The notes beneath the pieces were generated by a model, which was not told where the DNA came from, ran no database searches, and saw nothing but the letters and a program-made list of their open reading frames with translations. This document shows, one piece after another, positions 57,617 to 64,000 of a DNA stretch of 64,000 bases; within the stretch, counting starts at the first letter, position 1; each line of letters starts with the position of its first letter. The DNA is from Schaalia sp. ORNL0103 (GTDB lineage: Bacteria > Actinomycetota > Actinomycetes > Actinomycetales > Actinomycetaceae), in assembly GCF_019429565.1 (NCBI RefSeq), contig NZ_JAHXSA010000001.1, positions 806,001-870,000 of the forward strand, in the 5' to 3' direction. Made by a program: the position numbers and the translations under genes.

Positions 57617-60007
57617 TCAGCCCTCCAGTGAACGGGCGAACTGGCGCGCGTAGAAGATGCGCTGAGCAACCTCGACGAGGAGGGCCGCGCAGGCACCGAC
57701 GCACGCGATGACGAGCCACTCGTATCCGCTCGGCGCGACCATCGAGAAGAAGTGGCGCACAGGCGGAATGAGCACGCCGCCCACGGTCGCGGAGATGACG
57801 CTCGCCAGCAGGACCCACTTCCAGGTCGAGAGCGGGCGCGACGTGATGACGAGCAGCCAGATGGCACCCAGCATGAGGGAAAGAATCGCGGCCGTGGACT
57901 CGCGCGCCTGCGGCGGGCCATCAACGATACCGAAGGCCGTGAGGGCTGCCGCCGCCAGGATGATGCCCGTGGGCATCGCGAGCGACAGCGTACGCTTCAG
58001 GAATCCGGGCACGTAGCGGCGCGGGTTCGGCCACAGCGCCAGGAAGAACGCGGGAATACCGATGGTCAGCGAGTCGATGTAGCTGAACTGGCGGGGCAGG
58101 AACGGATAACGCCAGCCAACCAGGGCCGTCACGATGACAAGGACGGCAGCGTAGGTGGTCTTCGCCAGGAACAGCGAGGACACGCGTTCCATGTTGGCGA
58201 TGATGCGGCGGCCCTCCGAGAGAACACCCGGCAACACCGAGAACTTCGAGTCCACGAGAACGATCTGCGCGACCGCCTTCGTGGCCTGCGTGCCGTTCCC
58301 CATCGCGATACCCAGGTCGGCGTCCTTGAGCGCGAGCGCGTCGTTCACGCCGTCTCCCGTCATAGCCACGCAGTGATCGCGTGCCTGGAGCGCACCGACC
58401 ATCGCGCGCTTCTGCTCGGGAGTCACGCGCCCGAACACGTCGTGGTTCTCGATCGCGTCGATAAACGCCTCAGAGGTCAGGTCTTCGGGCAGGTCACGCG
58501 CGTCCATGAGGCGCGCGGGCGTGCCGTCGGGCGCCGTCAGGCCTGCCTGCGCGGCCAGCGCACCCACCGTCGTCGGATTGTCGCCCGAGATGACGCGCAC
58601 GTGCACATCCTGGGAACGGAAGTAGTCGAGAGTCTCGGCCGCGTCGGGGCGCAGATCCTCCTCGAGGACCACAAGCGCGGCAACCGAACGGCGCACGGGA
58701 AGCTCGTCGTCCGCCACAGCCTCATCGGCGTGGACGAGGGCCACCACGCGGGAGCCTTCCTGCGCGATGCCCCGCACCTTCGCAAGGAGATCGGCATTGG
58801 CAGCCGAGGCCTCGTCAATGACGAACTCGGGGGCGCCGAGGATCCAGGATTCGTGCCCGCTCCCCCACGCACTCCACTTGCGGGCCGAGGAGAAGGGGAC
58901 GGACCACTCAATCCGATCGGACGCGCCGGAGCGCTCAGATTCGCCCAGGTGCTCCCAAATGGCTTCCGCTGTCGCGTTGGTACGGTCGCTCGCGGCGCTC
59001 GCCAGTGCGCGAAGCACCACGACTTCGTCACCGGAAACGACCTCGACGCCCCGCACGCGAATGCCGCCGGTGGTGAGCGTACCCGTCTTGTCGAGGCACA
59101 GGCAGTCCACGCGCGCGAGGACCTCAACAGCGGGAAGTTCCTGGACGAGTACACCGCGGCGTGCCAGCGTCGCCGATCCGATCGCGAAGTTCATGGACGT
59201 CAGGAGCACCAGGCCCTGCGGGATCATGCCGATCACCGAGGCGACCGAGAGCACGAGGGCCTCGCGCCAGTCTCCCCCGTGACCGCCGGCGATGCGATTC
59301 TGCGAGTAGAAGGTCAGGACGACGATGGGAAGCAGCATCACGGAAACGACCTGCAGCACCCGATTGATCGACGTCTGGATCTCCGAGACCGTACGCGTGA
59401 AGGCACGCGCCTGCTCGGACAGGCCCTGCGCGTAGACGCGCTCGCCGACAGCCGTGGCCACCATGCGACCAGCACCCGCGACGACGCTCGTGCCGGCCAA
59501 CAGCTGATCGCCCTGCTTCTTCTTCACCGGGCGCGACTCGCCGGTCAGCAGCGACTCATCGATTTCGAGGCCCGCCGAGGACAGAACCGTACCGTCCACG
59601 CTCACCTGATCGCCGAGCGTCAGATCGATGACGTCGTCAAGCACGACGTCACGTGCGGGGACGACCGACAGGGTGCCGTCACGCAGGACGGTCGCCTGCG
59701 GAGCATCGACGATAGCGAGCGAGTCGAGGGTTCGCTTGGCACGCAGCTCAGAAACAATGCCGATCACCGCGTTGATGATCATCACGCCGCCGAAAATGCC
59801 ATCACGCAGGTCGCCGAACAGCAGCACGATCACGGACGCCGCGACGATGATCGCGTTGAACAACGTCAGGACGTTCTCGCGGATGATCGACGCCACCGAG
59901 CGGGACGTACGATCCTTCACCCGGTTGACCGCGCCGCGGGCGACGCGCTCGGCGACCTCGGCGGCGCTCAGGCCATGTTCATCGATCGTCAGGCTGTCAG
60001 CGCTCAT
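57617..60007 (-). CDS. P-type cation ATPase (CtpE-like)
   Basis: Membrane cation pump of 796 residues. TGES in the actuator domain, phosphorylation site DKTGTLT (Asp306), hinge TGDGVNDALALKDADLGIAMG, and about ten membrane helices. Overall it resembles mycobacterial CtpE, a calcium-related pump. The M4 motif reads IPQGLVLLTS with Gln264 where the ion-binding Glu of PEGL usually stands. No heavy-metal domain or CPC motif is present. ATG 60007 lies 11 bases inside the end of terC2, with GGAGGG upstream, so translation is coupled. Specificity (calcium, manganese or other) is not settled. Confidence 0.88.
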   Translation of the reverse strand: MSADSLTIDEHGLSAAEVAERVARGAVNRVKDRTSRSVASIIRENVLTLFNAIIVAASVIVLLFGDLRDGIFGGVMIINAVIGIVSELRAKRTLDSLAIVDAPQATVLRDGTLSVVPARDVVLDDVIDLTLGDQVSVDGTVLSSAGLEIDESLLTGESRPVKKKQGDQLLAGTSVVAGAGRMVATAVGERVYAQGLSEQARAFTRTVSEIQTSINRVLQVVSVMLLPIVVLTFYSQNRIAGGHGGDWREALVLSVASVIGMIPQGLVLLTSMNFAIGSATLARRGVLVQELPAVEVLARVDCLCLDKTGTLTTGGIRVRGVEVVSGDEVVVLRALASAASDRTNATAEAIWEHLGESERSGASDRIEWSVPFSSARKWSAWGSGHESWILGAPEFVIDEASAANADLLAKVRGIAQEGSRVVALVHADEAVADDELPVRRSVAALVVLEEDLRPDAAETLDYFRSQDVHVRVISGDNPTTVGALAAQAGLTAPDGTPARLMDARDLPEDLTSEAFIDAIENHDVFGRVTPEQKRAMVGALQARDHCVAMTGDGVNDALALKDADLGIAMGNGTQATKAVAQIVLVDSKFSVLPGVLSEGRRIIANMERVSSLFLAKTTYAAVLVIVTALVGWRYPFLPRQFSYIDSLTIGIPAFFLALWPNPRRYVPGFLKRTLSLAMPTGIILAAAALTAFGIVDGPPQARESTAAILSLMLGAIWLLVITSRPLSTWKWVLLASVISATVGGVLIPPVRHFFSMVAPSGYEWLVIACVGACAALLVEVAQRIFYARQFARSLEG

Positions 60008-60995
60008 CGGCACCCTCCTCGTCCATCGCGCTGCGCACCAGCGACGCAATCACGGTGACCACCAGAGTCACGACGATGACTCCCAGCGACACAGACACCG
60101 AAATCTCCGGTGCCCACTCGAAGCCGTGGCCCCCATTGATGAACGGCAGCGTGTTGGCATGCAGGGCCTCAAGAATCAGCTTAATGCCGATAAAGCTCAG
60201 GATGACGCCGAGACCGTAACCCAGGTACACGAGCTTGCCGAGGAGCGCGTCCACCAGGAAGAACAGCTGTCGCAGCCCCATGAGTGCAAACACGTTGCAC
60301 GCAAACACCAGGAATGCCTGCGATGTGATGCCGAAGATCGCGGGGATCGAGTCGAAAGCAAACATGAGGTCGGCAGACCCCAGGGCCAGCACGACGACGA
60401 ACAGCGGGGTGAGGTACGTGCGCCCACCGTGACGGTACAGCATGCGGTCGCCGATAAAGCCGTCCGTGATGGGCAGGACTCGGCGTACGACGCGGATGAA
60501 GGCGTTCTCCTCGTACTCCTCCTCGTCGCCGCCACCGGTCGCGGTCTCCTTAATCTGCGAGAAAGCAGTCCACAGCAGCCACACGCCGAAAATGAAGAAC
60601 ACCCAGGAGAAGCGCGCCACCAGCGCGGCACCCAGCAGAATGAACACGAGGCGCAACAGCAGTGCGATGACGATGCCGAAGAGCAGCGCCTTCTGCTGGT
60701 TCTCTCGCGGGACCCTGAATGCTTTCAGGATCAGGATGAACACGAAAAGGTTGTCCACGGAGAGTGACCATTCCATCGCCCATCCCGCGTAGAACTCCTG
60801 GGCGTACAGCCACCCGTTGGTGAGCCAGATTCCGACGCCGAAGACGGCCGCCAACCCCACGTAGAACAGCGTCCAGCGCGCCGCCTCGGCAGCGGTCGGC
60901 GGATGGGGATTACGGGCGTGCCCAAGGAAATCGAGCGCGACGAGACCGATGGCAACGAGGGCCAGAATGCCCCACGCCCACGGGTGAACAACCAT
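59997..60995 (-). CDS. TerC-family membrane protein, copy 2
   Basis: Integral membrane protein of 332 residues with eight or nine helices. TerC signature SVDNLFVFILILKAFRVP, FAFDSIPAIFGIT with its acidic residues in the membrane, and FINGGHG. An acidic cytoplasmic loop (GGGDEEEYEEN) follows the fourth helix. TerC proteins export manganese or help load it onto secreted enzymes in several bacteria. It follows terC1 by 58 bases and overlaps the P-type ATPase start. Confidence 0.9.
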   Translation of the reverse strand: MVVHPWAWGILALVAIGLVALDFLGHARNPHPPTAAEAARWTLFYVGLAAVFGVGIWLTNGWLYAQEFYAGWAMEWSLSVDNLFVFILILKAFRVPRENQQKALLFGIVIALLLRLVFILLGAALVARFSWVFFIFGVWLLWTAFSQIKETATGGGDEEEYEENAFIRVVRRVLPITDGFIGDRMLYRHGGRTYLTPLFVVVLALGSADLMFAFDSIPAIFGITSQAFLVFACNVFALMGLRQLFFLVDALLGKLVYLGYGLGVILSFIGIKLILEALHANTLPFINGGHGFEWAPEISVSVSLGVIVVTLVVTVIASLVRSAMDEEGADER

Positions 60996-61053: not shown

Positions 61054-62034
61054 TCACGCGCGCCGTTTGCTGGAAACCGCGAGGGAGGCCACGACCGTGA
61101 CCAGGATCGTCACGACGATGAAGCCCAGCGAGAACGCGATGGACGGCTCGGGGATCGCAGCTACCTCGTGTCCGCCATTGATGAAGGGCAGCTCGTTGGT
61201 GTGCAGGGCGTGGTTGATCAGCTTGAAGCCGATAAAACCGAGAATCGCGGCCAGGCCGTAGTGAAGGAACACGATGCGGTCGAGCAGGCCGTCGATGAGG
61301 AAGTACAGCTGGCGCAGGCCAAGCAGCGAGAACGCGTTGGCCGCAAACACCAGGTACGCCTCGGAGGTCAGCGAGTAAATCGCGGGGATCGAGTCGACGG
61401 CAAACATGACGTCGGCGGTGCCGATCGCGATGACGCACAACAGCATCGGCGTGATGTAGGTGCGTCCGCCGTGGCGGTAGAGCATGCGCGAGCCGATAAA
61501 TCCGTCGGTGACGGGCACGACTTTTGACACCCAGCGCACGATTGACGGCGGGCGGTACTCCTCGTCGTCGTCATCGCTGGAGCCTTCGCGAACCTGGCTG
61601 ATTGCTGTCCACAGCAGCCACGCGCCGAACAGATAGAAGACCCACGAGAAGTTTTCGATAAGCGCAGCACCAGCCAGAATGAAGATGAGGCGCAGAACCA
61701 GGGCGATGATGATGCCGGCGAGCAGCACCTCCTGCTGGTTTTTCCTGGGTACGCGGAAGGTGGAGAGGATGATGACGAACACGAACAGGTTGTCAATACT
61801 CAGCGCTTTTTCGGTGATATAGCCGCCGAGGTATTCCTGGCCGTATTGGGGTCCCCAGACCGCCCAGACGATGGCGCCGAAAATAAGGGCGATCGCGATG
61901 TAGGCGACGGACCACCAGGTCGCTTCCTTGAGCGTGGGTTCGTGGGGTGTGCGGACGTGGGCGACGATGTCGACGACGATCATGGTCAGGATGATGCCAG
62001 CCAGGACTATCCAGGCAAGGGCGTGCACGTGCAT
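61054..62034 (-). CDS. TerC-family membrane protein, copy 1
   Basis: Protein of 326 residues, a close paralogue of the next gene: SIDNLFVFVIILSTFRVP, FAVDSIPAIYSLT, FINGGHE, with an acidic loop SSDDDDEEY in the matching position. ATG 62034 (MHVHALAWIV) is set by the GGAGG site 8 bases upstream; the frame is open to 62148 but through the structured leader. The leader is a yybP-ykoY-type riboswitch, so expression probably rises with manganese. Confidence 0.92.
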   Translation of the reverse strand: MHVHALAWIVLAGIILTMIVVDIVAHVRTPHEPTLKEATWWSVAYIAIALIFGAIVWAVWGPQYGQEYLGGYITEKALSIDNLFVFVIILSTFRVPRKNQQEVLLAGIIIALVLRLIFILAGAALIENFSWVFYLFGAWLLWTAISQVREGSSDDDDEEYRPPSIVRWVSKVVPVTDGFIGSRMLYRHGGRTYITPMLLCVIAIGTADVMFAVDSIPAIYSLTSEAYLVFAANAFSLLGLRQLYFLIDGLLDRIVFLHYGLAAILGFIGFKLINHALHTNELPFINGGHEVAAIPEPSIAFSLGFIVVTILVTVVASLAVSSKRRA

Positions 62035-62042
62035 ACGTGGGG

Positions 62043-62070
62043 CCTCCGGTACGAGTCGGGTACCGGAGGT
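62043..62070 (-). promoter_or_regulatory. Anti-Shine-Dalgarno hairpin of terC1
   Basis: CCTCCGGTAC (62069-62060) and GTACCGGAGG (62052-62043) form a perfect 10-bp stem with a 7-base loop. The 3' arm contains the terC1 ribosome site GGAGG. The 5' arm contains the six bases that form the 3' strand of riboswitch helix P1, so the two structures exclude each other. Confidence 0.75.
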
Positions 62071-62176
62071 CTCCTCCCGCCAGGAAATCCTGGCCGGTGA
62101 CGCCGGAGGCCGCGCCGCATGGGCGGGCCGTCGTGATGACGACGCCACTGTTGGTGGGAGTACTCCCCTCCGCTTA
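62060..62176 (-). ncRNA. yybP-ykoY (manganese) riboswitch
   Basis: In the minus-strand leader of terC1. Helix P1 pairs CGGAGG (62172-62167) with CCTCCG (62069-62064). The first conserved internal element is GGGGAGTA directly after P1, then a hairpin, then GTCGTCATCACG, then CCGGCGTCACC, a GCCAGG/CCTGGC hairpin, and GGAGACCTCC closing P1. Order and sequence match the yybP-ykoY class, which senses manganese and often precedes terC. It probably turns translation on: folding of P1 frees the ribosome site from the overlapping hairpin. Confidence 0.85.
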
Positions 62177-62183
62177 CACCTCT

Positions 62184-62189
62184 ATCCTA
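62184..62189 (-). promoter_or_regulatory. Candidate -10 element for the terC operon
   Basis: TAGGAT on the minus strand, 11 bases before helix P1 of the riboswitch, where a -10 would be expected. No convincing -35 at proper spacing was found. Confidence 0.3.
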
Positions 62190-62316
62190 GTCGGAAGCAC
62201 CCGATCCCAGGCGATTCATGACAAGTGGCGTCTGTCGCCTTCACGATGCCGGCCGCTCCCGATAGACGAGGCCGGGGCCGACCCACGCTCACAGGAAACC
62301 TGGGCGGGGGCCGTCG

Positions 62317-64000
62317 TCAGTGGGCGCGCTTCATGGCGCGCAGTTCCTTCTTCAGGTCTTCGATTTCGTCACGCAGGCGAGCCGCGACCTCGAATTGGAG
62401 GTGCTGGGCGGCGGTCATCATCTGGGCGGACAGCTCCTCGATGAGTTCGGCGAGCTCGGCTTCGGCGCGCTGACCCGATGTCGCGGCGCGGCCGCCGCCG
62501 GTCGCGTCGCTACGCTCCCGCTTGCTCTTCTCCTTGCGGTACCCGCCCTCAAGGAGGGTCTGCGTATCAACCTGCTCGCGGGCAAGCATGTCGGTGACGT
62601 CGGAGATCTTCTTGCGCAGCGGCTGCGGGTCGATGCCGTGTTCCTTGTTGTAGGCGATCTGGATCTCACGGCGACGCATCGTCTCCGAGATGGCCTCGTT
62701 CATAGAATCCGTCATGTTGTCCGCGTACATATGGACCTCACCGGACACGTTTCGTGCTGCACGACCGATCGTCTGGATGAGCGAGCGGGTGGAGCGCAGG
62801 AAGCCTTCCTTGTCCGCATCGAGGATCGACACGAGGGAGACCTCGGGCAGGTCCAGGCCCTCACGCAGCAGGTTGATGCCGACGAGCACGTCGAAGGTGC
62901 CCAGGCGCAGCTCGCGCAGCAGCTCGACGCGGCGCAGGGTGTCGACGTCGGAGTGCAGGTATTCAACCTTGACGCCGCGCTCGGCAAGGTAGGTCGTGAG
63001 CTCCTCGGCCATCTTCTTCGTCAAGGTGGTGACGAGGACTCGTTCGTCACGTTCCACACGCACACGCACCTGCTCGAGGAGATCGTCGATCTGCCCCTCG
63101 GTGGGCTTGACGACGACGAGCGGGTCGACGAGTCCCGTCGGGCGAATGATCTGCTCGACGACACCGTCGGAGCGCTCGAGCTCGTAGGGGCCGGGGGTCG
63201 CCGACAGGTAGACGGTCTGTCCGATGCGCTGGGTGAACTCGTCCCACTTCAGGGGGCGGTTGTCCATCGCCGAGGGCAGGCGGAAGCCGTAGTCGACGAG
63301 AGTGCGCTTACGGGACATGTCCCCCTCGAACATCGCGCCGATCTGCGGGACGGTCACGTGCGACTCGTCGATGATGAGCAGGAAGTCGTCGGGGAAGTAG
63401 TCCAGCAGCGTGTGCGGGGGCGTTCCGGGCCCGCGCCCGTCGATGTGGCGCGAATAGTTCTCGACGCCCGAGCACGAGCCGATTTCCTTGAGCATCTCCA
63501 GGTCGAAGGTGGTGCGCATACGCAGGCGCTGCTCCTCAAGCAGCTTGTTCTGACCGCGGAACCACGCGAGGCGATCATCGAGCTCATCCTCGATGGAGGC
63601 GATCGCCTTCTTCATGCGTTCCTCGCCGGCCACGTAGTGCGAGGCCGGGAACAGGTAGGTGTGATCCACGTGATCGATCACATCGCCGGTGAGCGGGTGG
63701 AGAACTGCAAGAGACTCGATCTCGTCGCCGAACATCTCGATGCGGATCGCGAGCTCCTCGTACACGGGGATGATCTCGATCGTGTCGCCGCGCACGCGGA
63801 AGGTACCGCGCGTGAAGGCCATATCGTTACGGACGTACTGCATGGCGACGAAGCGGCGCAGCAGCGCGTCGCGGTCGATGATCATGCCCCGCTCGAGCTC
63901 AATCATGCGAGCCACGTATTCCTCGGGCGTGCCGAGGCCGTAGATGCAGGACACCGAGGAGACGACGACCGTGTCGCGCCTCGTCAGCAGCGAGTTCGTA
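62317..64000 (-). CDS. uvrB: Excinuclease ABC subunit B, 3' part
   Basis: Helicase-like subunit of nucleotide-excision repair. The gene runs off the right edge; about 561 residues of roughly 690 are visible. Seen: the beta-hairpin-adjacent region [26 protein letters not shown], the HSDVDTLRR and [17 protein letters not shown] motifs, QTIGRAARN, and the C-terminal UVR domain ([20 protein letters not shown]) that binds UvrC. The stop is followed by the terC operon leader on the same strand. Confidence 0.96.

Follow-up and report, generated by a model that had tools for sequence, protein, structure and literature searches.

Whether the RNA upstream of terC1 senses manganese, and how such a signal might reach the ribosome, is the question raised by a short minus-strand region in Schaalia sp. 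ORNL0103. We studied this region within a 64,000-nt stretch of contig NZ_JAHXSA010000001.1 (GCF_019429565.1), called the window here, and all coordinates count along it. Our analysis indicates that the leader RNA very probably activates a gene for manganese handling when this metal is abundant. We hold with considerable confidence that it is a translational yybP-ykoY manganese riboswitch with alx-like architecture, which controls terC1 and probably also terC2 and a P-type ATPase. The leader belongs to an established riboswitch class, within which it recurs across the lineage; it does not represent a new class.

The structured leader spans 62172-62064 on the minus strand, on which all features described here lie, and the expression platform spans 62069-62043. 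The original prediction had listed the yybP-ykoY hallmarks in a defined order, and this is the order found: GGGGAGTA at 62168-62161, GTCGTCA at 62143-62137 and GGAGACC at 62074-62068. In RNA letters, the class-defining loops follow one another as L1, GGGGAGUA closed by AGACC, and L3, UCGUCA, and the conserved frame of P1.1, P1.2, P3.1 and P3.2 is present. From the 5' end, the P1.1 5' strand CGGAGG (62167..62172) leads into the 5' side of L1, GGAGTA (62161..62166), and then into the P1.2 5' strand CTCCC (62156..62160), whose partner is GGGAG (62078-62074). The junction strand ACCAACA (62149..62155) takes the place of the P2 hairpin of other members. It is followed by the P3.1 5' strand GTGGCG (62143..62148; partner CGTCAC, 62102-62097), the 5' side of L3, TCGTCATCAC (62133..62142), the P3.2 hairpin (62106..62132), the 3' side of L3, CGG (62105-62103), and a P4 hairpin, GCCAGG-ATTT-CCTGGC (62079..62094), assigned by fold prediction. 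The closing segment (62064..62078) contains GGGAG (P1.2 3' strand), GAGA (L1 3' side) and CCTCCG (P1.1 3' strand), as assigned from the letters, an alignment (A1) and covariation.

The expression platform reads CCTCCGGTAC-CCGACTC-GTACCGGAGG (62043..62069) and forms the perfect 10-bp hairpin that had been proposed, with arms at 62069-62060 and 62052-62043 and a 7-base loop. Also as proposed, the P1 3' strand CCTCCG (62069-62064) is wholly contained in the 5' arm, and the 3' arm includes GGAGG (62047-62043), at 8 bases from the terC1 ATG (62034). Such a hairpin is by itself not rare in the window: perfect 10-bp hairpins with a loop of 3-12 bases begin at 28 positions on the minus strand of the 64 kb. 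What stands above chance is the combined set, namely the motif pair, the fold stability, and the helices and hairpin, which relatives keep through compensatory changes. In the 2.35-Mb genome, GGGGAGTA..GTCGTCA is present as a pair a single time, and the fold of the 143-base leader has a z of -4.12, with none of 200 shuffles equally stable.

We built a covariance model, R1, from 38 of 60 dereplicated sequences (125 bases or less), the window's own leader included. Because this training set contained that leader, a leave-out model, R2, was built to lessen circularity. R2 derives from 18 sequences whose records are named outside Actinomycetaceae (Blastococcus, Geodermatophilus, Isoptericola, Luteimicrobium, Paraoerskovia, Quadrisphaera, Xylanimonas and a 'Streptomyces sp.'), an outside-family status that rests on the record names. 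R2 gives the window site a score of 67.6 bits and an E of 1.2e-13 over 73 kb; genome-wide, the site has an E of 4e-12 and the next-best place an E of 0.94.

The relatives were aligned with MAFFT to give A1, after removal of L030, which was false, and L061, which had a wrong 3' end. Since MAFFT misaligned L3 in some A1 rows, pair counts were taken from a model-derived alignment, A2, of 89 rows (83 distinct), which includes one doubtful weak match (L079 3365-3477, E 0.042). In A2, which leans to the structure to which it was fitted and whose counts are inflated by related rows, 89.5% of cells are paired, compared with 75.5% when shuffled and 45-58% when slid; two-sided changes are seen in 24 of 26 pairs and occupy 327 cells, compared with 108 when shuffled. 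They affect 21 of the 23 pairs of the conserved frame: 5 of 6 in P1.1 (helix 1 of A2, 95.8% paired), 4 of 5 in P1.2, and all six in both P3.1 and P3.2, the latter with 85% of cells paired. P4, helix 5 of A2, has just 69.5% of its cells paired, and its length differs among relatives. As for the loops, the 5' side of L1 is invariant in A1 and in a further alignment, A4, and the CGTCA of L3 is invariant in A1.

In E. coli, the gene annotated as Mn exporter Alx has a leader that matches R1 end to end (46 bits, E 2.3e-10) and likewise R2 (37.2 bits). According to PMC9603457, translational fusions to alx rise 3- and 6.5-fold at 1 and 2 mM Mn in an mntP deletion strain; because both models match alx, the window leader is homologous to an experimentally shown member. 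The two share GGGGAGUA, UCGUCAUUACG and GAGACC, and in our reading both have about five to eight bases between P1.2 and P3.1 and no P2 hairpin. By eye, the P1 3' strand of alx also continues into a downstream stem. The window RNA differs from alx in being GC-rich, in its short P4 and in the perfect 10 base pairs of its ribosome-site hairpin, and also in the genes that follow it, two of terC and one for an ATPase.

A match to Rfam RF00080, put forward as the check on the original prediction, with its absence as grounds for refuting that prediction, did not materialize, either at the gathering score in the window or at E up to 10 in 156 bases and the whole genome. This failure carries little weight, because the same model also misses the positive control: it gives no match, even at E 10, on the alx leader (L177 1874-2000), a published manganese riboswitch. 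RF00080 scores E. coli mntP at 41.6 bits, under its 45-bit cut-off, and at E up to 10 mntP gives no match to R1 or R2. The window leader has GGGGAGUAGC and the overall motif order in common with mntP and with RF00080 ('Manganese') of Rfam 15; the difference lies in L3, where the printed RF00080 consensus is GUCAACAUACU, which is mntP-like, against UCGUCAUUACG in alx and UCGUCAUCACG in the window. At E up to 10, RF00080 has sub-threshold matches, often partial ones, in 24 of the 151 genomes of the family and in 63 of the 297 of the order, and none of the 151 family genomes exceeds the cut-off. Weak full-length matches below the cut-off overlap R1 matches in three order genomes (L162, L164, L166). 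Separately, the leaders L112 1501-1622 and L163 1501-1605, both on the minus strand and from two order genomes, carry an mntP-like L3 (GUCGACAUACU) and match both RF00080 and R1 weakly; both L3 types seem to occur within the order. Weak matches to other Rfam families at the window site were rejected, since they are below the respective cut-offs (L17 leader, 20.1 of 34.9 bits; groES, 17 of 50; sR-tMet, 16.1 of 50; mir-1976, 12.4 of 71). The idea that the element is novel because Rfam misses it was dropped, as alx is missed as well.

P1 and the ribosome-site hairpin compete for one strand and are mutually exclusive. In 68 of 75 leaders, a set consisting of 77 dereplicated leaders minus two in which no ribosome site was found, each helix forms at least 5 of the 6 shared pairs. 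When the platforms of all 77 were folded, at least 3 of 4 ribosome-site bases were paired with the P1 3' strand in 71; the exceptions are three leaders with none of the four bases paired, one with two, and the two without a ribosome site found. At P1 pair 4, counted from L1, G-C is replaced by A-U in 9 of the 75 leaders and the hairpin partner is held by a G-U pair. At pair 5, G-C becomes C-G in three (L016, L017 and L083), where the partner in the hairpin is C twice and U once; the platform fold of L016 and L017 is weak. Hairpin arms taken from the same leader have a mean energy of -16.0 kcal/mol, compared with -14.6 when swapped and -15.1 for the best permutation. For P1, 436 of 450 pairs form, against a permuted mean of 418 and a maximum of 426 (2000 permutations), a result that is inflated, as is P1 pairing itself, because the P1 3' end was picked partly by pairing (at least 4 pairs required); the hairpin pairing is free of that selection. 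This conserved pairing of the P1 3' strand with the ribosome site is a feature of a translational on-switch. The originally proposed competition, together with the class, gene and helix assignment, is supported by the comparative data, the alx match and membership of the TIGR03718 protein family.

In the mechanism we propose, transcription would begin beside P1, and Mn2+ would dock between L1 and L3, as expected from the class, so that P1.1 stays closed. Closed P1.1 would retain the 5' arm of the ribosome-site hairpin, leaving GGAGG free for TerC to be made; with no metal, P1.1 would open, the 10-bp hairpin would mask GGAGG and translation would be off. We infer the ligand, direction and timing of the switch, taking the metal-on direction from the riboswitch class and from the helix that frees GGAGG. 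The computed energies of the window RNA are -75.7 kcal/mol with the hairpin (blocked) and -66.8 with P1 forced, P3 and P4 being kept in both. Because this 8.9 kcal/mol gap favours the off state, it would have to be paid by metal docking or co-transcriptional timing. A -10-like box, TAGGAT (62184..62189), suggests by its position that the P1 5' strand lies near the transcript start; the RNA would then begin with P1. The box is recognized by its conservation: TANNNT starts at -28..-14 from GGGGAGTA in 58 of the 77 dereplicated leaders, compared with counts of 2, 2 and 4 for three equally wide control windows. A scan for the sigma-70 consensus around the leader found no promoter.

Downstream, three genes run in the same direction. 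terC1 (61054..62034) starts with ATG and encodes a TerC/Alx family protein (PF03741, 166 bits; TIGR03718, 365 bits against a cut-off of 246). The second TerC/Alx gene, terC2 (59997..60995; PF03741, 158 bits; TIGR03718, 350 bits), begins 58 bases past terC1 and probably shares its transcript. The third encodes a P-type cation ATPase (57617..60049; PF00122, 133 bits; TIGR01494, 231 bits), whose listed TTG start is probably too early. Both TerC proteins belong to TIGR03718, 'R_switched_Alx', which places the leader before genes of metal transport or homeostasis. The 58-base gap between terC1 and terC2 (61053-60996) contains GGTAAAATT, which may be the -10 box of another promoter.

Across relatives, we examined the genes behind the 57 best-scoring R1 loci of the order and phylum searches, chosen without regard to genes, with our own locus included and thus not a random sample. 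TerC follows in 44 and a P-type ATPase in 8 (together 52 of 57), and five were assigned to neither; four loci had no ORF and some ORFs were off-frame, and six genes were placed by tblastn.

This gene context bears on whether the fold might answer to a signal other than Mn2+ alone, such as another divalent ion (Ca2+, for example) or Mn2+ combined with alkaline pH. According to a review (PMC9495176), the mgtA member from Streptococcus has a tighter hold on Ca2+ than on Mn2+, alx responds to alkaline pH besides Mn as described in PMC9603457, and some members of the present set precede P-type ATPases for which a Ca2+ pump model is the top NCBIfam match. The predominance of the TerC/Alx family, behind 44 of the 57 loci, argues against such a signal, which we consider unlikely, although it is the most credible of the alternatives. 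A leader acting on transcription, for instance through Rho or pausing, with the ribosome-site hairpin secondary, appears improbable: transcriptional members do exist in the yybP-ykoY class (PMC6754395), but no intrinsic terminator-like site lies in 61950-62350, and what is conserved in the platform is pairing between the ribosome site and the P1 3' strand.

It is more improbable still that the leader uses no ligand and is a constitutive structure or one recognized by a protein. Folding energy alone prefers the blocked state, as such a view would have it, whereas the invariance of the unpaired L1 and L3 loop bases in A1 and A4 and the alx match to both R1 and R2 speak against it. A translational manganese switch remains the reading we prefer.

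The crystallized yybP-ykoY aptamers of L. lactis and X. oryzae have the same L1 and L3 loops and P1 and P3 legs but, as described in PMC6754395, a four-way junction that includes the P2 hairpin, where the window has the seven bases ACCAACA. The P2 hairpin of that subtype is absent from the window leader and from A2, which has 8 columns between P1.2 and P3.1, so that three helices would meet at the junction. This absence is not novel in itself, since a review gives the same three-way junction for the Streptococcus mgtA member (PMC9495176).

The hint that the layout might be undescribed for this lineage has weak support. Among the papers listed by our literature search, for which subscription papers were mostly beyond reach, no title or abstract reports the element in Actinomyces. 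The layout itself is order-wide, and the leader of C. glutamicum terC (cg2157) was placed under RF00080 in 2013, with its transcript observed, according to Table 2 of PMC3890552. That leader is also an actinobacterial terC leader, from another genus, and is likened to ours by this listing.

At E up to 0.01, R1 finds the element in 211 of 297 order genomes and 74 of 95 genera, compared with 0 of 297 for RF00080 above its cut-off, and at E up to 0.001 in 78 of 396 genomes of the phylum. The E-values of R1 are approximate, and stricter filters applied to searches over 40 genomes. In many genomes of actinobacteria, annotation with the present Rfam model therefore leaves out alx-type manganese riboswitches, and this gap is the most useful by-product of our analysis. 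The GGGGAGTA..GTCGTCA pattern occurs in 72 of 151 family genomes, some of them by chance, since a reversed control gave 9 matches in 7 genomes. Among the best 80 of 575 TerC relatives found by protein, 79 have the element directly upstream of terC (68 of 69 in L032-L100 and 11 of 11 in L101-L111 with R1), L087 being the sole exception in the R1 search. The R1 upstream search took 90 sources, L101-L111 and L087 were run in another search, and L015, L018-L021, L024, L025, L028, L030 and L031 lie outside the count of 80. In two Blastococcus loci (L107 6276-6379 and L110 6672-6775), the first terC is followed by a second copy of the element.

The nearest named TerC1 relatives come from Actinomyces and related Actinomycetaceae, with 93% identity in Actinomyces bouchesdurhonensis among the best-scoring relatives. 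Two further records, L032 (Xylanimonas cellulosilytica 352_XCEL) and L033 (Sanguibacter keddieii 250_SKED), have a TerC1 98-99% like that of the window and a near-identical leader; their labels look doubtful, as if mislabelled.

The leader offers a probable manganese switch reduced to one helix against another, which is easily testable. The evidence is evenly balanced on a broader proposal: that actinobacteria hold a P2-less, alx-type subclass with a three-way junction and a uniform P1/ribosome-site switch, present in most order genomes and outside the Rfam model, which may deserve its own family and whose regulon may include at least one uncharacterised protein family. In one genus, the R1 match precedes such a protein, and not a known metal gene, at L193 (R1 match near 1500, gene from about 1676, plus strand) and L201 (583-1458, minus strand), both among the five loci assigned to neither TerC nor a P-type ATPase. 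The two proteins are 42% identical over 191 aligned residues, and that of L201 (292 aa) has no Pfam match; from sequence, they are possible new members of the manganese regulon. At L190, an R1 match lies before a plus-strand gene (1614-2948) for a 444-aa membrane protein, which by eye looks like the sodium/calcium exchanger family.
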